DNA of 64,000 bases, taken from Thermus oshimai DSM 12092. Its GTDB lineage: Bacteria; Deinococcota; Deinococci; Deinococcales; Thermaceae. The notes under the pieces were generated by a model. The model did not search any database and was not told the DNA's origin. It saw only the letters and a program-made list of their open reading frames with translations. The DNA is taken from the NCBI RefSeq assembly GCF_000373145.1, contig NZ_KB890602.1:190-64189 (forward strand). Direction: 5' to 3'. The translations under genes were made by a program, and so were the position numbers. Shown here one piece after another: positions 35,531 through 52,026 of this stretch (positions are counted from its first letter, which is position 1; each line of letters begins with the position of its first letter).

Positions 35531-38843
<3,313 letters not shown>

Positions 38844-38847
<4 letters not shown>

Positions 38848-39092
38848 TCCAGGCCCCAGGCCCGTCGGAACTCTGCAAGCTCCTCTGGGCTAACCTCCGC
38901 GGCTTTCTGGAACTCCTCTAGACGCTCCTCGGTATAGACCTCGTAGCTGAGGAGAAGGGCAGGTTCCAGGACGATTTTGCCCCCCTCCACCCGCAAGAGG
39001 AGGGCATCCCCAGCCTTGAGGCCAAGCTTCTCCCGCACTTCCTTGGGGAGGGTGATCTGGCCCCTTCGGGAGAGGATGAGGGGGGTGGGCAT
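38844..39092 (-). CDS. AbrB-type antitoxin (VapB-like)
   Basis: The 82 residues carry a SpoVT/AbrB DNA-binding fold at the N-terminus (LSRRGQITLPKEVREKLGLKAGD, a swapped-hairpin barrel) and a C-terminal acidic helix (EERLEEFQKAAEVSPEELAE) that would neutralise the PIN toxin. The antitoxin-first order and ATGA overlap are normal for VapBC modules, and the complex probably represses its own promoter. TATCCT sits six bases before the start. Confidence 0.85.
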
Positions 39093-42488: not shown

Positions 42489-43118
42489 GTGGAGGTCTTT
42501 GAGCGGGAAGCACGGGCCCTGGACGAGGCCATCCGGGACTTCCTCGCCTGGAAGGGGCTTGGGGTGTCCTGCCGGGCAGGGTGCTTCGCCTGCTGCTACG
42601 GCTGGGTGACCGCCTCCCGCCTCGAGGCGGAGGCCCTCCTCCCCCACCTCACCGAGGCCCAGCGGGCGAGGGTGCGGGCGGAAGGGCAGGCGCGGCTTGC
42701 CCTCCTCAAGGAGGCCAAGGACGACCCCCGCTTTCCCGAGCGCTTTTTCCTCCTGAAGCGGCCTTGCCCCCTCCTGGAAGGGGGGCTTTGCGGGGTCTAC
42801 CCCCACCGCCCCCTGGCCTGCCGGGGGGTGCTTACGGACGAGGACCCCGGCTACTGCCAGCCCGGAAACCCCCATCCCGCCCCCAAGGCCCACCACGGCC
42901 CCGGCCACTACCTGAAGGTCCCCCACCGCATGGCCCGCATGGCCATGGAGCGGCTTTGGGAGGAGGAGGGGAGGCGGTACGGCTTCGTGCTCCTGGGGGA
43001 GCTTTCCGGCCTCCTCTACCTTCTGGAAGAGGGCCTTCTCTCTTCCCGGGAGGAAACGGAAGCCCGCCTAGGGGCCCTTGGGGTCCTAGGCGGGCGGTTC
43101 GGGTACCAGATCGTCTAG
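42489..43118 (+). CDS. YkgJ-family cysteine-cluster protein
   Basis: The 209-residue protein has the cysteine cluster CRAGCFACCYG near residues 28-38, then CPLLEGGLCGVYPHRPLACRG and a Cys at GYCQPGNP. These match the zinc or iron-binding YkgJ (UPF0153) family, suspected to bind an Fe-S cluster, with unknown function. The GTG start at 42489 has TACTCT at leaderless spacing. The stop shares CTAG with the DUF3467 gene. Confidence 0.88.
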   Translation: MEVFEREARALDEAIRDFLAWKGLGVSCRAGCFACCYGWVTASRLEAEALLPHLTEAQRARVRAEGQARLALLKEAKDDPRFPERFFLLKRPCPLLEGGLCGVYPHRPLACRGVLTDEDPGYCQPGNPHPAPKAHHGPGHYLKVPHRMARMAMERLWEEEGRRYGFVLLGELSGLLYLLEEGLLSSREETEARLGALGVLGGRFGYQIV

Positions 43119-43381
43119 GCCTGCCCTTCCGCCACGGGTTCGGGGATGGGCCCGAAGGTCTCCTCGTAGCGGGCCACGTTCTCCGCCAGGCTCCTCAGGA
43201 GGGCCTTGGCGTGCTGGGGGCTGGTGATCACCCGGCTCACCACGATGGCCCCGCCCTGGGGCTGGAGGAGGGCGAAGTCCAGGATGAACTCGTTCTTGGT
43301 GTGGGCGATGAGGGCCAGGTTGGTGTACCGGCCCAGGGCCGTGTCCTTGTCTATGTTGATGTCCAGCTTCATCTCCGTCAT
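43115..43381 (-). CDS. DUF3467 protein
   Basis: The 88-residue product starts MTEMKLDINIDKDTALGRYT and shows the DUF3467 pattern YTNLALIAHTKNEFILDFAL, IVVSRVITSPQHAKALLRSL. The family has no defined biochemical role. It ends the ybaB-recR-roadblock unit and overlaps the previous roadblock gene by four bases (ATGA), so its product is probably made with those proteins. Convergent with the YkgJ-type gene. Confidence 0.85.
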   Translation of the reverse strand: MTEMKLDINIDKDTALGRYTNLALIAHTKNEFILDFALLQPQGGAIVVSRVITSPQHAKALLRSLAENVARYEETFGPIPEPVAEGQA

Positions 43382-43722
43382 AGGGCCTCCTCAATCTTGG
43401 GCAGGGCCTTCTTCAGGCCAAGCCGCGCCCGGCCTAGGCTCCTCATCCCGTCCAGGAAGAGGAGCAGGTGGTGGCCGGAAAGGGGCACCAGGAGCAGGGT
43501 GCCCTCGGGGTACTCTACCATGACCTCCTCCACCCCCTCCTGGCCCAGGGCCTGGCCCAAGGCCTTGGCCGTACCCAGCACGGTGGCCGCGCGGGCGGAG
43601 AGGAGGTCCGCCTCCGGGGCCCCCTCCTCTTTGAACTCCTCCACCACGAACCCGTCCTCCGAGAGGAGGGCCACCGCCAGCACCCCCCGGACGGCCTTGA
43701 GCTCCCTTAAGGCTTCCTCCAC
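43378..43722 (-). CDS. Roadblock/LC7-domain protein A
   Basis: The 114 residues form one roadblock/LC7 domain: LRELKAVRGVLAVALLSEDGF, ARAATVLGTAKALGQALG, VMVEYPEGTLLLVPLSGHHL and GLKKALPKIEEAL. Such domains usually bind Ras-like GTPases, such as MglA partners of MglB. A GTG start at 43720-43722 follows an AGGAGG ribosome-binding site. It is the last of three tandem related genes; no GTPase gene is nearby. Confidence 0.82.
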   Translation of the reverse strand: MEEALRELKAVRGVLAVALLSEDGFVVEEFKEEGAPEADLLSARAATVLGTAKALGQALGQEGVEEVMVEYPEGTLLLVPLSGHHLLLFLDGMRSLGRARLGLKKALPKIEEAL

Positions 43723-43732
43723 CCCTAACCTC

Positions 43733-44062
43733 CTATAGTCCCACTAGGCGCAGGGCGATGCGGGAAAGCTCGTTGCCGATGGCCTTGCGGTCCATGCCCC
43801 GCTCGATCACCGCCCCCAGCACGTACCCCCCCACCTTTACCGCCAGGACCTCCTGGTCCTCCGTGGCCAGGGTGAAGCGCCGCACCTCCCCCCCCAGGGC
43901 CTCCGCCAGGGGGGTCATGTGGCGCACCAGGGAGGCCAGCTCCGCGGCCAGCACCTCCGCCGCGGGGGCCCCCCGGCCCAGGGCCTCGATGACCAGCCCG
44001 TCCAGGCCGGTGAGCACCGCCCGCTTCACGCCCAGGGGGGCCAGGCTTTCTAGGTACGCCAT
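43733..44062 (-). CDS. Roadblock/LC7-like protein B
   Basis: The 109-residue product reads MAYLESLAPLGVKRAVLTGLDG, then ELASLVRHMTPLAEALGGEV, VLAVKVGGYVLGAVIERGM. It fits a roadblock/LC7 fold although the match is weaker than for its neighbour. I chose ATG 44060-44062 because it gives a compact domain and overlaps the upstream gene by 13 bases; the frame is open ten residues further up. It is second of the three tandem genes. Confidence 0.72.
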   Translation of the reverse strand: MAYLESLAPLGVKRAVLTGLDGLVIEALGRGAPAAEVLAAELASLVRHMTPLAEALGGEVRRFTLATEDQEVLAVKVGGYVLGAVIERGMDRKAIGNELSRIALRLVGL

Positions 44063-44430
44063 GCCGCCTCCAGGATGCGCTCCGCCGCCCACCCCGTCAT
44101 GAGCCGGGCCTGGCCCAGGTTGGCCTCGGGGGGGAGGAGGAGGAGCAGGAAGAGGTCCCCCGTGTTCACGTTCGGTCCACCCCTGACCATCCTGGCATAG
44201 CCTACCACATGCCCCCCGTGGACCAGGAGCTCCTCCACCCGGGGGCTTCCCAGGCTTTGGGCGTAGGCCCGCCCCGCCTGGCGGAGAAGGGCCGCGTGCT
44301 CGGCGATGGCGGCCTCGAGGTCCACCCGCCGCCGCTTCGCCCCCTCCACCAAAAGCCCGTCCAGGGTGCCCAGGGCCGCCGCCCAGGCCCCCTCCACCCG
44401 GTCCAGCAGGGTTTGGAGAACCTCTTCCAT
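44050..44430 (-). CDS. Roadblock/LC7-like protein C
   Basis: The 126 residues start MEEVLQTLLDRVEGAWAAALG and contain LDGLLVEGAKRRR, HAALLRQAGRAYAQSLGSP, VEELLVHGGHVVGYARMVRGG and a C-terminal helix LMTGWAAERILEAAW. The order of strands and helices fits roadblock/LC7, with a longer loop. The start at 44428-44430 follows the recR stop by 17 bases. A longer frame upstream lies inside recR and is not used. Confidence 0.7.
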   Translation of the reverse strand: MEEVLQTLLDRVEGAWAAALGTLDGLLVEGAKRRRVDLEAAIAEHAALLRQAGRAYAQSLGSPRVEELLVHGGHVVGYARMVRGGPNVNTGDLFLLLLLPPEANLGQARLMTGWAAERILEAAWRT

Positions 44431-44447
44431 CGTTTTTCTGGGGGGGC

Positions 44448-45032
44448 TTAGAGGGGCCTCCGCCCCTCCAGGGCCTTGCCCAGGGTGACCTCGTCCGCGT
44501 ACTCCAGGCTCCCCCCCACGGGGAGGCCGTAGGCGGGTCGGCTCACCCTGACCCCCCGCTTCTTGAGCTCCTCCGCCAGGTAAAGGGCGGTGGCCTCCCC
44601 TTCCACGGTCATGGAGGTGGCCAGGACCACCTCCTCCACCCCCTGAAGCCGCCGGAAAAGCCCCTCCAGGTTCAGGGCCTGGGGGCCGATACCCTCTAGG
44701 GGGTTCAGAGCCCCCCCCAGGACGTGGTAAAGCCCCCGGAACTCCCCGCTCCGCTCCAGGGCGTAGAGGTCGGCCACGGTCTCCACCACGGCGATGGTCC
44801 TCCGGTCGCGGCCTTCGTCCTGGCAGATGGGGCAGAGCGCCCCTTCCGCCAGGTTGCCGCACGCCTGGCAGACCCCCAGGGCCTTAAGCCCCTCCAGGGC
44901 CTCCCTAAGCCCCTCCGCCTCCTCCTTGTGGAAGGCCAGGAAGAGGGCCAGCTTCTGGGCGGTCTTGGGGCCTACCCCGGGCAGGCGGGCCAGGGCGCGG
45001 GAAAGCTTGAGGAGGCTTTCGGGGTAGCGCAT
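44448..45032 (-). CDS. recR: Recombination protein RecR
   Basis: RecR works with RecF/RecO to load RecA on gapped DNA. The 194 residues have the helix-hairpin-helix LARLPGVGPKTAQKLALFL, the four-Cys zinc finger CQACGNLAEGALCPIC, and a Toprim domain (IAVVETVADLYALERSGEF with the pattern up to GIGPQ) then LATSMTVEGEATALYLAEEL. Length is normal. It starts right after the ybaB stop, as in many bacteria. Confidence 0.97.
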   Translation of the reverse strand: MRYPESLLKLSRALARLPGVGPKTAQKLALFLAFHKEEAEGLREALEGLKALGVCQACGNLAEGALCPICQDEGRDRRTIAVVETVADLYALERSGEFRGLYHVLGGALNPLEGIGPQALNLEGLFRRLQGVEEVVLATSMTVEGEATALYLAEELKKRGVRVSRPAYGLPVGGSLEYADEVTLGKALEGRRPL

Positions 45033-45350
45033 CTAGAAAAGCTTGCCCAAGGCCTGGCCCACCCCCCCAAGCTCCCGGGCCATCTCCTTTTCCGAAAGCT
45101 CGTGGGCCTTCTTCTGGGCGTCCTGGATGGCCACCAGGAGGAGGTCTTCCAGGCCTTCCGGGTCCTCGGCGAAGGCCTTCAGGGCCTCGGGCTTGACCCG
45201 CACCCGGAGGATCCGCCCGTGCCCGTTGGCGTCCACCTCTATAAGCCCCTGGGCCGAGCCCGTGACCACCATTCCCTCCAGCTTTTCCTGGATTTCCGCG
45301 GCCTTCTTCTGGGCCTTTTGCGCTTCCTTAAGGAGCTTCTGCAGGTTCAT
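45033..45350 (-). CDS. Nucleoid-associated YbaB/EbfC protein
   Basis: YbaB/EbfC proteins are small dimeric DNA-binding proteins that often co-occur with recR and dnaX. The 105 residues show MNLQKLLKEAQKAQKKAAEI, GSAQGLIEVDANGHGRILRV and EDLLLVAIQDAQKKAHEL. Here dnaX is absent, but ybaB directly abuts recR. The ATG at 45348-45350 has GAGGAGG upstream, so this message has a leader, unlike the hemB mRNA on the other side. Confidence 0.92.
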   Translation of the reverse strand: MNLQKLLKEAQKAQKKAAEIQEKLEGMVVTGSAQGLIEVDANGHGRILRVRVKPEALKAFAEDPEGLEDLLLVAIQDAQKKAHELSEKEMARELGGVGQALGKLF

Positions 45351-47576: not shown

Positions 47577-49280
47577 TTAGGGCAGGACCAGGTACGCCAC
47601 CCGCCGCCCTTCCCGGGCGAGGACCAAGGTGCCCTCCCCGGTGCGGTAGACCAGGAGGTCGGCCACTTTTCTGGGAACCTCCGCCGCCTGGCCCACGTAG
47701 ACCGCGTCCTCCTTCAGCCTGAGGGAAAGCACGGTCTGGCCCACCCGGAGGGCCTGGGGCTCGGGGGTGAGGGCCAGGAGGTGGACCTCCCCGCCCAGGG
47801 TCTCCCGGGTGGGGGGACGGCGGCCCAGGTAGTCCTTGAGCGCGCCCGCCAGGGCCTCCGCCTCGCCCTTAAGCCCCAAAGCCTCCCCCACCTCCAGGAG
47901 GAAGGGGGCGGGGTCCTGGGGCCCGAGCCGCTTGAGGGTGAGCTCAAGCCCTTTTCGGGCGAAGTCCTGCAGGGCCTCGGGGGGGGCCTGGCGGTACTTC
48001 TCGGCCAGGGCGGGGCCGAAGGCCTCCGGGCGGAACTCCCCCTTGAGCCGGGCGGAAAGGGCCCTTAGGAGGCGGAGGTGGGCGTAGTCCCTCTCCGGGT
48101 CTAGGAGGAGGGCCAAAACCCGCCCCTCGGAGAGGAGCTCGTAGAGCCGGAGGCCGCTTCGGGCCTCGAGCCGAAGGTGGACCACCTCCCCCTCCCGCAC
48201 CGCAAAGACCTCGAGGTCCTCAAAGGGGAGGAGGAGGGTGTCCTCCAGGACCCGGTCCTCCCCCCCAAGCCCCAGGTGCCAGGCCCCTTCCGCCTGGGCC
48301 AGGGTGAGGACCAAAGGCCCGATCTGGACGCGCCCCGGGCGGAGGGGGAGGGTGGCCAGGTTCTCCTCCACCACCCCCACTTCCGGCACCCGGGGCCAGG
48401 GGGTGTCCCCCTGGGGGGTGGGGAGGAGGGCGAGGAGGGCTAGGACCTTTTCCATGGCCACCCGGAAACGCCCCCTTTCCTCTTCCAAGAGGAGTTCCCT
48501 TCGCCTTTCCTCCTGGGCTTCCCGCCTAAGGCGCTCCTCCAGGCGGGCGATCTCGGCCTCCGTGGCCCCCAGGTGCCGGGCCTCCTCCAGGGCCCTTCTG
48601 AGGGCCAGGAGGTCCCGCTTGGGGGGGAGGCCGTAGGCCCCGTCCCACTCCAGGATGCGCATGAGGAAGCGGCGGAGGTAGGGCCGGGTTTCCTCTGGGG
48701 GGAGGGGGAGGTGCTGGGGGAGGTGGAGGGCGGTTTCCAGAAACTCCAGGAGGAGGGCCTCGGCCACCTTGGGGTCGTCCAGGTCCACCAGGGTGTCGGA
48801 AAGGGAGGGGATGGGGTGGGTGGGGGCAAAGCGGGAGAGGTTGAAGTCCCGCTTGAACTCGGGTTTTTCCTTGTATTCCAGGAAGTTCTGCAGGAAAGCG
48901 TGGACGAGCCGAAGCTCCTCCCGCCTTCCCGCGAGGAGCTCCTTGGCCCGCACCCGGACTTCGCGCTCCGTGAGGAGCCGCCACACCTTGAGGGCCAGGG
49001 CCTTCAGGGGGCTTTCCTCCCCCTTGGGGGGCTCCAGGGGCACGGCCTCCAGGGTGGGGAGCTCCGGGGGAGGAGGCGGGGCCGCCTCCCTCTGGCGCAG
49101 GGCCCGGTAGCGGGCGTCCGCCTGGCGGAAGCGCTTGGCCAAGGGCCCTGGAAGGCGGGCCTGGGCCAGGAAGGCGCGGAGCTTCAACAAGGCCCCCTTC
49201 CCCCCCTTGGGGGTGCGGCCTGAGAGGAGGTCCTCCACCCGGTACTCGTAGAGGTCCACCAGGTCGGCGAGGTGCTCCAC
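47577..49280 (-). CDS. Large soluble orphan protein divergent from PP2C
   Basis: The 567-residue product has no signal, membrane helix or catalytic motif that I recognise. The N-terminal ~100 residues are helical and basic, followed by a proline-rich hinge (residues ~67-85), long helices, a charged coiled-coil-like stretch (~225-285, rich in Glu and Arg) and beta-rich modules with RVQIGPLVLTLAQAEGAWHLGL and, at the end, VGQTVLSLRLKEDAVYVGQ. The two beta modules look alike and may be repeats. The GTG start has TAGGAT at leaderless spacing. It faces the kinase island and may act with it. Confidence 0.7.
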   Translation of the reverse strand: MEHLADLVDLYEYRVEDLLSGRTPKGGKGALLKLRAFLAQARLPGPLAKRFRQADARYRALRQREAAPPPPPELPTLEAVPLEPPKGEESPLKALALKVWRLLTEREVRVRAKELLAGRREELRLVHAFLQNFLEYKEKPEFKRDFNLSRFAPTHPIPSLSDTLVDLDDPKVAEALLLEFLETALHLPQHLPLPPEETRPYLRRFLMRILEWDGAYGLPPKRDLLALRRALEEARHLGATEAEIARLEERLRREAQEERRRELLLEEERGRFRVAMEKVLALLALLPTPQGDTPWPRVPEVGVVEENLATLPLRPGRVQIGPLVLTLAQAEGAWHLGLGGEDRVLEDTLLLPFEDLEVFAVREGEVVHLRLEARSGLRLYELLSEGRVLALLLDPERDYAHLRLLRALSARLKGEFRPEAFGPALAEKYRQAPPEALQDFARKGLELTLKRLGPQDPAPFLLEVGEALGLKGEAEALAGALKDYLGRRPPTRETLGGEVHLLALTPEPQALRVGQTVLSLRLKEDAVYVGQAAEVPRKVADLLVYRTGEGTLVLAREGRRVAYLVLP

Positions 49281-49286
49281 CCTTTC

Positions 49287-49296
49287 ATCCTATAAT
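49287..49296. promoter_or_regulatory. Overlapping divergent -10 boxes (orphan / PP2C)
   Basis: ATCCTATAAT holds TAGGAT on the minus strand (49287-49292), six bases before GTG 49280, and TATAAT on the plus strand (49291-49296), seven bases before ATG 49304. The ATG inside TATAATG at 49295 is part of the promoter and not the real start. Confidence 0.65.
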
Positions 49297-49303
49297 GGGC
49301 CTG

Positions 49304-50059
49304 ATGCGCCTTGCGCCCCGCCTGGTCCTGGCCGCGGTGTCCCACGTGGGCCGTCGGCAGAACAACGAGGACTTCCACCGCATCCTGCGCTACGAGGTGC
49401 CCCCGGGGAACCTCCTCCTCCTGGCGGTGGCCGACGGGATGGGGGGCCTCGAGGCCGGGGAGTGGGCCAGCAAGGTGGCCATAGAGGCCCTAAGCGAGGC
49501 GGTGAAGGCCTACGCGGAGCACCTGAAAAGCGGCCGGCCTGCGGTGGGCCTGGACCGGGTGATGGAGAAGGCCTTCCTCCTGGCCCAGCGCCGGGTGGAG
49601 AAGGAGGCCGCGGCCAAGGGGCGGGGGGGGATGGGCACCACCCTCACCGCCTTCCTCTACGCGGACTGGCTGAAGGAAGGGGTGGTGGGCCACATCGGGG
49701 ATTCCCGGGCCTACCTCTTCACCCCAAAGGGGCTGAAGCGCCTCACGGAGGACCACTCCTGGGTGGCGGAGCGGCTTAAGGAAGGGGTCCTGACCCCCAC
49801 GGAGGCGGAGCGCCACCCCTACCGCCACGTCCTCACCCGGGCCCTGGGGCTTCCCGAGGCCCGGTTTGACCTCATCCCCGTGCGCCTCATGCCGGGGGAG
49901 GGGGTGGTGCTGGCCACGGACGGCCTTTACGGTCTGGTGCCCGAGGCGGAGTGGCGGCTGGGCCGGGACCTGCAGGCGGGCCTCGAGGCCCTCCTCTCGG
50001 AGGCCCTGCGCCGCGGCGGCGACGACAACATCACCGCCGTGGCCCTGAGGGTGGAGTGA
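49304..50059 (+). CDS. PP2C-family protein phosphatase
   Basis: It removes phosphate from Ser/Thr residues and is the natural antagonist of the next kinase. The 251 residues carry the PP2C metal motifs: RQNNEDFHRI, VADGMGGLEAGEWASKVA, GMGTTLTAFLYADWLKEGVVGHIGDSRAYLF, LTEDHSW, LATDGLYGL and GGDDNITAVALRV. I chose ATG 49304, since the upstream ATG 49295 lies inside the -10 box; the protein then starts MRLAPRLVLAAVSHVG. It overlaps the kinase start by one base. Confidence 0.95.
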   Translation: MRLAPRLVLAAVSHVGRRQNNEDFHRILRYEVPPGNLLLLAVADGMGGLEAGEWASKVAIEALSEAVKAYAEHLKSGRPAVGLDRVMEKAFLLAQRRVEKEAAAKGRGGMGTTLTAFLYADWLKEGVVGHIGDSRAYLFTPKGLKRLTEDHSWVAERLKEGVLTPTEAERHPYRHVLTRALGLPEARFDLIPVRLMPGEGVVLATDGLYGLVPEAEWRLGRDLQAGLEALLSEALRRGGDDNITAVALRVE

Positions 50060-52026
50060 TGCACCTCCTTTTGGCCTTTCTCCTCGTCCTCCTCACCGCC
50101 GCCTTGGCGGTGCGCCTCCCCCCCTTCCCCCTCTTCCTCCTCCTCTCCCTCCTTTCCGGGGGGGCCTGGGTCCTGGGGGCGAGGCTCGAGGCCCTCCTCC
50201 CCGCCCTGGCCCTTCCTTTGGGCTTCCTCCTCGCCCCCCGCCTTCTCCTCCCCCGGAGGAGGCGGACCAAGGCCAAGGCCAAATCCCCCCGCCGGGAAAA
50301 GCGGCCCACGGGCGCGTCCGAGGAGACCCAGCCCCTTTCGGAGCGCTACGAGATCCTGGAGAAGGTGGGGATCGGGGGGATGGCCACGGTCTACAAGGCC
50401 AAGGACAGGAAGACCGGCCGCCTGGTGGCCCTCAAGGTTCCCCAGGAGCGCTTCGTGGGCGATCCCCGCTTCGTGCGCCGCTTCCACCGGGAGGCGGAGG
50501 TTCTGGCCCGCATGGACCACCCCAACATCGTCAAGGTCTACGACCACGGCCAGCTGGACGGGGTGCACTACATCGCCATGGAGTTCCTGGAGGGGGAGGG
50601 GCTGGACAAGCTCATTGAGGAACGGCGCCTCACCCTCCGCCAGGCCGCGGCCATCCTGGCCCGGGTGGCGGACGCCCTAAAGCACATCCACGCCCAGGGC
50701 ATCGTCCACCGGGACATCAAGCCGGGAAACATCATGGTCCTGAAGGGGGCCCTCAAGGAGGACGGGGTGGACCCCCGGGGGGTCCGGCTCATGGACTTCG
50801 GCATCGCCGCGGGCAAGGTCCTGACCCGGCTCACCATCACCGGGGCCCGCATCGGCACCCCCGTCTACATGAGCCCGGAGCAGGCCAAGGGGCAGAAGCT
50901 GGACCACCGTTCGGACATCTACTCCCTGGGCATCGTCCTCTACGAGGCCCTCACCGGCCAGCCCCCCTTCACCGGGGGGTACGAGACGGTGATCCACCAG
51001 CAGATCTTCCAGATGCCCACCCCCCCCAAGCAGCTCCGCCCGGAGATCCCCCAGGGCCTTTCCGACCTGGTCCTCAGGATGCTGGAGAAAGACCCCGCCA
51101 AAAGGCCCCCTCTGGAGGAGGTCATCGCCCTCCTGGAGGGCCCCTGGGAGGAGGAGAAGGGCCTGCCCCAGCCCCACTACCTCCTGGTGGCCGTGGAGGC
51201 CAAGAAGGGCACGGTGCGCCTCCTGAGCCTCGAGGGCACCCCGGCCCGGATGCTCTCCGGCATCGGCTCCGCCCCCGGCCACTTCTCCGCCCCGCCCCTG
51301 GCGGTGGCCGCGGACGGGGAGGGCGGGATCTGGGTGGCGGTCTTTGAGCACGGCTCCAAGCTCCTCCACCGCTTCTCCCCCGAGGGGAAGCTCCTCCTCT
51401 CCGCGGGGCCCTACGGGATGAAGCCCGGGGAGCTCCTCTTCCCCGTGGGGCTGGCCTTTGCCGGAGGGAGCCTTTTCGTGCTGGACGGGGAGACGGCCAC
51501 CATCACCCGCTTCGCCCAGGACGGCACCTACCTGGCCCGCTTCGGGGGGCAGGGGCCGGGGCGGGGCACCTTCCAAGACCCCAAGGCCCTGGTGGCCACC
51601 CGGGAGCACCTCTTCGTCCTGGACTACGGCAACCGGCAGGTGCAGCGCCTCACCTTAGAGGGCCAGTACCTCTCCCGCTACGCCTTCCGCAAGGGCCGGG
51701 AGAGCCAGGAGCTGAGGCTCCTCGGGGGGGTGGGGGCGGAGGGGGAGAGGCTCTACCTCGCGGACCTCGAGGCCCAGAAGATCCGCGTTCTAGACCTCTC
51801 GGGCACGCTCCTCTTCTCCTACGACCTCCCCCGGGAGGAAGGGGAGGACCCCATGGCCCTGGTGGACCTCCTCCCCTGGCAGGGGGTGCTCTACCTGGCC
51901 CGCAGGGGGGGGCAGAGGATCCACCGCCTGGCCCTGCCCAAAGGGGAGCCCCTGCCCCCCCTTCCCGTCTACGCCCCCCTTAGGGGCCTCGCCCTCTTCC
52001 AGACGGGGGTTTTGGCCAAGGCATGA
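50059..52026 (+). CDS. Membrane Ser/Thr kinase with NHL-like beta-propeller
   Basis: The 655 residues comprise two N-terminal membrane helices (residues ~2-62), a basic linker, a Hanks-type kinase (~95-370) and a C-terminal beta-propeller (~380-655). Kinase motifs are intact: VGIGGMATVYKA, VALKV, HRDIKPGNIMVL, LMDFGIA and MSPEQ. The propeller holds NHL-like repeats such as LFVLDYGNRQVQRLTLEGQ. With no second membrane span after the kinase, the propeller should be cytoplasmic, unlike PASTA or extracellular sensor kinases. It overlaps the response regulator by four bases. Confidence 0.9.
   Translation: MHLLLAFLLVLLTAALAVRLPPFPLFLLLSLLSGGAWVLGARLEALLPALALPLGFLLAPRLLLPRRRRTKAKAKSPRREKRPTGASEETQPLSERYEILEKVGIGGMATVYKAKDRKTGRLVALKVPQERFVGDPRFVRRFHREAEVLARMDHPNIVKVYDHGQLDGVHYIAMEFLEGEGLDKLIEERRLTLRQAAAILARVADALKHIHAQGIVHRDIKPGNIMVLKGALKEDGVDPRGVRLMDFGIAAGKVLTRLTITGARIGTPVYMSPEQAKGQKLDHRSDIYSLGIVLYEALTGQPPFTGGYETVIHQQIFQMPTPPKQLRPEIPQGLSDLVLRMLEKDPAKRPPLEEVIALLEGPWEEEKGLPQPHYLLVAVEAKKGTVRLLSLEGTPARMLSGIGSAPGHFSAPPLAVAADGEGGIWVAVFEHGSKLLHRFSPEGKLLLSAGPYGMKPGELLFPVGLAFAGGSLFVLDGETATITRFAQDGTYLARFGGQGPGRGTFQDPKALVATREHLFVLDYGNRQVQRLTLEGQYLSRYAFRKGRESQELRLLGGVGAEGERLYLADLEAQKIRVLDLSGTLLFSYDLPREEGEDPMALVDLLPWQGVLYLARRGGQRIHRLALPKGEPLPPLPVYAPLRGLALFQTGVLAKA

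Follow-up and report, generated by a model that had tools for sequence, protein, structure and literature searches.

Known Roadblock systems and the gene run in the window

Eukaryotic hetero-Roadblock assemblies such as LAMTOR2/3 (p14-MP1) and Ragulator scaffold kinases and GTPases, and the actinobacterial conservon combines the CvnA kinase, the CvnB Roadblock protein, CvnC, and the CvnD GTPase. The GTPase-GAP pair MglA/MglB of Thermus thermophilus and Myxococcus is represented by PDB entries 3t12 and 6izw. In Myxococcus, MglC binds MglB (PMC7949163). A 2014 survey of the Ras superfamily counted 328 MglB homologues uncoupled from MglA, none of them characterized (PMC4316618).

The window, that is, the whole 64,000-nucleotide stretch of DNA analyzed here, derives from a Thermus-type genome (69% GC) and contains a run of six co-directional genes on the minus strand, ordered 5' to 3' as ybaB, recR, Robl C, Robl B, Robl A, and DUF3467. 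The first gene, ybaB (45033-45350), encodes a YbaB/EbfC nucleoid-associated protein (PF02575, 81.7 bits; TIGR00103 above its cut-off), and recR (44448-45032) encodes a recombination mediator (TIGR00615, 206 bits as compared to a cut-off of 162.6). These are followed by the Roadblock genes Robl C (44050-44430, 126 amino acids), Robl B (43733-44062, 109 amino acids), and Robl A (43378-43722, 114 amino acids) and by a gene for an 88-residue DUF3467 protein (43115-43381). The coordinates and Pfam matches agree with a preliminary description of three roadblock/LC7-like genes and DUF3467 behind ybaB-recR, and the tight spacing noted there was borne out by the junctions: ybaB and recR abut (0 nt), 17 nt separate recR from Robl C, Robl C and Robl B overlap by 13 nt, 10 nt separate Robl B from Robl A, and the Robl A stop overlaps the DUF3467 start by 4 nt. 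The same description called the genes “fused” to ybaB-recR, which holds as operon linkage but not as protein fusion, none being present in the window. Robl B starts at an ATG preceded by GGAGG, and initiation from a GTG at 44092, which would give a longer protein, is possible. No local RNA families or sigma-70-type promoters were detected. Convergent with DUF3467 on the plus strand is a gene for a CxxCxxCC (zinc- or iron-chelating) protein (42489-43118), the two ends overlapping by 4 nt. Further away, two short minus-strand genes (38443-39092) resemble, by eye, a PIN-domain toxin and an AbrB-type antitoxin.

Three Roadblock groups and a DUF3467 family

All three candidate Roadblock proteins exceeded the Pfam Robl_LC7 (PF03259) cut-off of 23 bits, Robl A at 47.6, Robl B at 30.5, and Robl C most weakly at 24.0 bits. 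The assignments are strengthened by profiles, built for each protein from alignments drawn from across the phylum, which match solved Roadblock structures. The Robl C profile identified MglC of Myxococcus xanthus (7ct3, E = 2.6e-22) as by far its best solved relative, with the next best structure at 1.3e-9. MglB (6h5b, E = 1.3e-9) was the best solved relative of the Robl A profile, and the Robl B profile, generic in character, matched the Robl_LC7 structure 7f8f (E = 1.3e-9) and, more weakly, dynein roadblock (4e-5). The AF2 model of Robl C (pLDDT 93.2) exhibits the topology alpha-beta-beta-alpha-beta-beta-beta-alpha and aligned with Roadblock chains from Asgard, Streptomyces, LAMTOR, MglB, and MglC at Z scores of 13-18.6. 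Robl C is thus predicted to have a clear Roadblock fold, as the preliminary description had expected of structure models, and the profiles assign Robl A and Robl B to the same predicted fold.

A tree built from 105 Robl domains placed C, B, A, and MglB in separate groups; it comprises 109 columns only, with many open forks, and its deep branching was not relied on. Groups C, B, and A each hold several families, from Thermaceae through Trueperaceae-type genomes, and on this account the triplication is old, the three being ancient orthologous groups and not recent duplicates. An additional well-supported Robl group was observed elsewhere in the genomes of nine loci (L006, L007, L017, L027, L028, L030, L032, L151, and L157), and no member of it was seen in the genome of the window.

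Robl A resembles MglB in being nearest to it by profile and in belonging to the same superfamily, and the genome contains one MglA/MglB pair. In contrast to MglB, the three Robl proteins form groups of their own, are shorter, have no counterpart of the C-terminal extension of MglB, and are encoded without an adjacent GTPase. Robl A reached 20 bits against the curated MglB model NF052242, as compared to a cut-off of 200. The C-terminal helix used by Myxococcus MglB on MglA is absent from A, B, and C. Robl A of several families retains an MglB-like alpha-2 segment, which has drifted in the protein of the window. The set is reminiscent of the Myxococcus system in combining an MglC-like with an MglB-like protein; unlike MglC, Robl C belongs to a tandem array with A and B that adjoins DUF3467.

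The DUF3467 protein is a clear member of its family (PF11950, 73.6 bits as compared to a cut-off of 25), and its AF2 model (pLDDT 83.5) consists of three strands followed by a long helix (β3α). The model had no Foldseek match at E ≤ 0.001, and against the PDB, a single-sequence search returned nothing and a profile search nothing credible. VIA-align comparison of the 88-residue model yielded modest matches to COMM domains (Z 5.0), Borrelia Pur-alpha (4.6), and PC4 (4.5). COMM domains, which top this structure list only narrowly, were not accepted as relatives. Elsewhere, unlike in the window, the family occurs without Robl genes: in Bacteroidales it is found by rpsL or near rpoC, and in the Actinomycetota examined its neighbors varied, with no Robl adjoining. 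The Bacteroides gene immediately precedes rpsL, and the Parabacteroides gene lies two genes downstream of rpoC (L140:5977-6285 and L141:5974-6288). DUF3467 is a separate family, the genes of which are coupled, in this phylum, to Robl genes.

A conserved core in two genomic surroundings

A genome scan for DUF3467 yielded 51 loci with one peptide pattern, which favors this phylum, and Robl genes at these loci were detected with HMMs derived from the window proteins and their relatives. Directly upstream of DUF3467, at least one Robl gene was present at 46 of the 51 loci, at least two at 44, and three at 16, these counts and those of 21 and 17 given below being loci rather than independent events. 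Among 111 sampled genomes of the phylum, DUF3467 was detected in 98 and Robl in 104. Across the sampled phylum, C-B-A order is maintained and the Robl genes stay next to DUF3467, so that grouping the Roadblock genes with DUF3467, as had been proposed, stands. Robl A is the most constant component; detectable C is absent from Meiothermus and Calidithermus and B from most Trueperaceae, and two or more different Robl genes are usually retained (A+B, A+C, or A+B+C). In one family (f2), C-B-A is present without DUF3467. The conserved core of the unit is Robl plus DUF3467. At a single locus (L054:1471-2073, minus strand), Robl A and DUF3467 occupy one frame. A Rosetta-stone fusion was rejected here: comparison to two close relatives indicates one additional G in the G run where the two genes meet, probably an indel or sequencing error.

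The unit follows ybaB-recR only in Thermaceae and two neighboring families (f4 and f2). In Trueperaceae-type genomes, the next genes downstream of the core on the same strand encode a PP2C phosphatase and Ser/Thr kinase pair, with a DsbA-like gene between core and pair in several of these genomes. PP2C/kinase genes were directly downstream on the same strand at 15 of the 17 loci with Robl and without recR, a set that leaves out one truncated Thermus contig. The two exceptions are a contig end and a locus of family f3, in which C-B-A lies beside neither kinase nor recR. Of the recR-linked loci, 21 had 6.5 kb or more of sequence upstream, and at 16 of these PP2C or kinase was present within the 8 kb covered, on the opposite strand. 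In the window, the PP2C gene (49295-50059, plus strand; PF13672, 52 bits) and its partner Ser/Thr protein kinase gene (50059-52026, plus strand; PF00069, 185.6 bits; NHL, 21.2 bits) are separated from ybaB by three genes and lie on the strand opposite to it, PP2C at a distance of 3.9 kb. The kinase has a hydrophobic N terminus and NHL-like C-terminal repeats, and in Trueperaceae the orthologue of the window PP2C adjoins the Robl-DUF3467 core. A minus-strand gene (47577-49280) that diverges from PP2C encodes a 567-amino acid protein with no Pfam match and is kept beside PP2C in Thermaceae and family f2. The kinase gene of Thermus parvatiensis (L098:1409-4126, minus strand) is spread over several frames and is either broken or badly sequenced.

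The recR link is not the general one, since other families have the core by PP2C-kinase or by neither. We interpret the placement behind ybaB-recR as common transcription and not as a common function, and the preliminary suggestion of a role in DNA or chromosome organization, drawn from that linkage, is not supported, the linkage being confined to Thermaceae and the two neighboring families; conservation beyond close relatives applies phylum-wide to the Robl-DUF3467 core but not to its attachment to ybaB-recR. A DNA role would have the Robl proteins and DUF3467 acting with YbaB and RecR, DUF3467 being a PC4/PUR-like nucleic acid binder. Consistent with this are the tight ybaB-recR operon in the three families, the weak PC4/PUR-like matches of the DUF3467 model, and the Bacteroidales positions by rpsL and near rpoC. 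However, the unit is found away from recR and ybaB in other families, and the structural matches of DUF3467 do not exceed a Z of 5 and include COMM domains. We know of no DNA role for any Roadblock protein, and consider this explanation very unlikely. The occurrence of the core by a eukaryote-like kinase and phosphatase in other families points to signaling rather than DNA repair.

Co-transcription without any functional relation, the Robl genes and DUF3467 being mere neighbors behind an upstream promoter common with ybaB-recR, would fit the packing together of unrelated genes in compact genomes and the existence of DUF3467 without Robl in Bacteroidales and Actinomycetota. Retention of the Robl-DUF3467 adjacency in two surroundings and across deep divergence argues against this account, which we regard as unlikely.

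As compared to the conservon, the locus is likewise a small conserved unit with a Roadblock gene and a kinase link. It differs in having three Robl genes, a Ser/Thr kinase and PP2C in place of a histidine kinase, and DUF3467 in place of CvnC; conservon histidine kinase, CvnC, and GTPase genes were all absent from the unit in the window.

MglA and candidate functions of the unit

The genome of the window contains one MglA-type GTPase, encoded on contig C13 adjacent to a canonical MglB and thus beside its own mglB rather than the Robl genes of the window; the earlier remark that no GTPase is nearby was correct. A single MglA copy was present in 99 of 111 genomes. MglA was absent from five genomes at least 90% complete (G100, G104, G105, G106, and G110), and a sensitive A-profile search detected no Robl in four of these (G104, G105, G106, and G110) and one weak A in G100. 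DUF3467 with the kinase is kept in G104-G107, and PilT in G104, G106, and G107. Genomes of genus g29 (L145, L146, L147, and L078) were observed to keep DUF3467 and the kinase with neither MglA nor Robl. Because MglA-less, near-complete genomes are nearly all without Robl, the pattern suggests that Robl proteins depend on MglA. The co-loss comes from about three lineages, in which genes may have been lost more generally, and the relation is not strict, as G108 and G109 have MglA and only one Robl by A profile.

These observations bear on a GTPase-independent alternative, in which a Robl heteromer resembling p14-MP1 (LAMTOR2/3) would keep the kinase, PP2C, and DUF3467 assembled independently of MglA. 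The one-strand order Robl-DUF3467-PP2C-kinase in Trueperaceae-type genomes, the match of the Robl C model to MP1-p14 chains (Z 16-17), and the absence of a GTPase gene near the unit are each consistent with such a scaffold. However, the structural match is unspecific, the fold being common to all Roadblock proteins, and the Robl genes vanish upon MglA loss, with DUF3467 and the kinase staying. Resemblance of the Robl set to LAMTOR2/3 and Ragulator, which are eukaryotic, is at the level of fold only, and we consider the GTPase-independent scaffold rather doubtful.

The analysis shows the gene content of the locus, the predicted fold (modeled for C, by profile for A and B), the ancient paralogues with their conserved order and phylum-wide DUF3467 adjacency, and PP2C-kinase linkage in two families. 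The explanation we favor, tentatively and at somewhat less than an even chance, is a hetero-Roadblock adaptor module that includes DUF3467 and acts with MglA in trans and in PP2C-kinase signaling. Robl A (MglB-like), Robl C (MglC-like), and Robl B would form hetero-dimers or higher assemblies, and hetero-oligomers of these proteins, raised in the preliminary description, are plausible. The assemblies would dock on the single MglA of the cell, the gene for which lies elsewhere beside that for its MglB GAP, and may connect the state of MglA to the PP2C-Ser/Thr kinase pair, with control either of or by the kinase. DUF3467 would be a partner or an output of the module.

An adaptor module is favored because Robl A is nearest MglB and Robl C nearest MglC, which binds MglB in Myxococcus, and because C, B, and A are old, separate groups with two or more members upstream of DUF3467 at 44 of 51 loci. 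Linkage to the phosphatase-kinase pair at 15 of 17 non-recR and 16 of 21 recR-linked loci argues for a role in that pathway, and a role for MglA is favored by the one copy per genome, the loss of Robl mostly together with MglA, and the MglB-like alpha-2 of Robl A. Docking on MglA is weakened by the missing MglB C-terminal helix in A, B, and C and by the drifted alpha-2 of the window Robl A. The Thermus linkage is possibly an inherited position only, because the pair lies on the opposite strand, three genes from ybaB. The module is further weakened by family f3, with C-B-A apart from kinase and recR, and by family f2, without DUF3467. A broader version of the adaptor module, distinctly unlikely in our estimation, is a bacterial counterpart of Ragulator, a three-paralogue platform that would link MglA, the kinase/phosphatase pair, and, via DUF3467, transcription or nucleic acid.

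The literature search on the T. thermophilus genes returned only a recR deletion study, the text of which is silent on the operon and on roadblock (PMC11143384), and no description of a three-paralogue Robl-DUF3467 unit was found. Roadblock proteins, MglA/MglB/MglC, and DUF3467 were already known; the new element, for which we found no description, is the three-paralogue unit with DUF3467. It constitutes a phylum-wide set of such orphan MglB homologues, the order of which is conserved and for which a kinase connection is a candidate, and one member of the phylum is amenable to genetics. Should the module couple MglA to Ser/Thr phosphorylation, it would have a parallel in the eukaryotic Roadblock GTPase-kinase scaffolds and would provide the first functional context for DUF3467.
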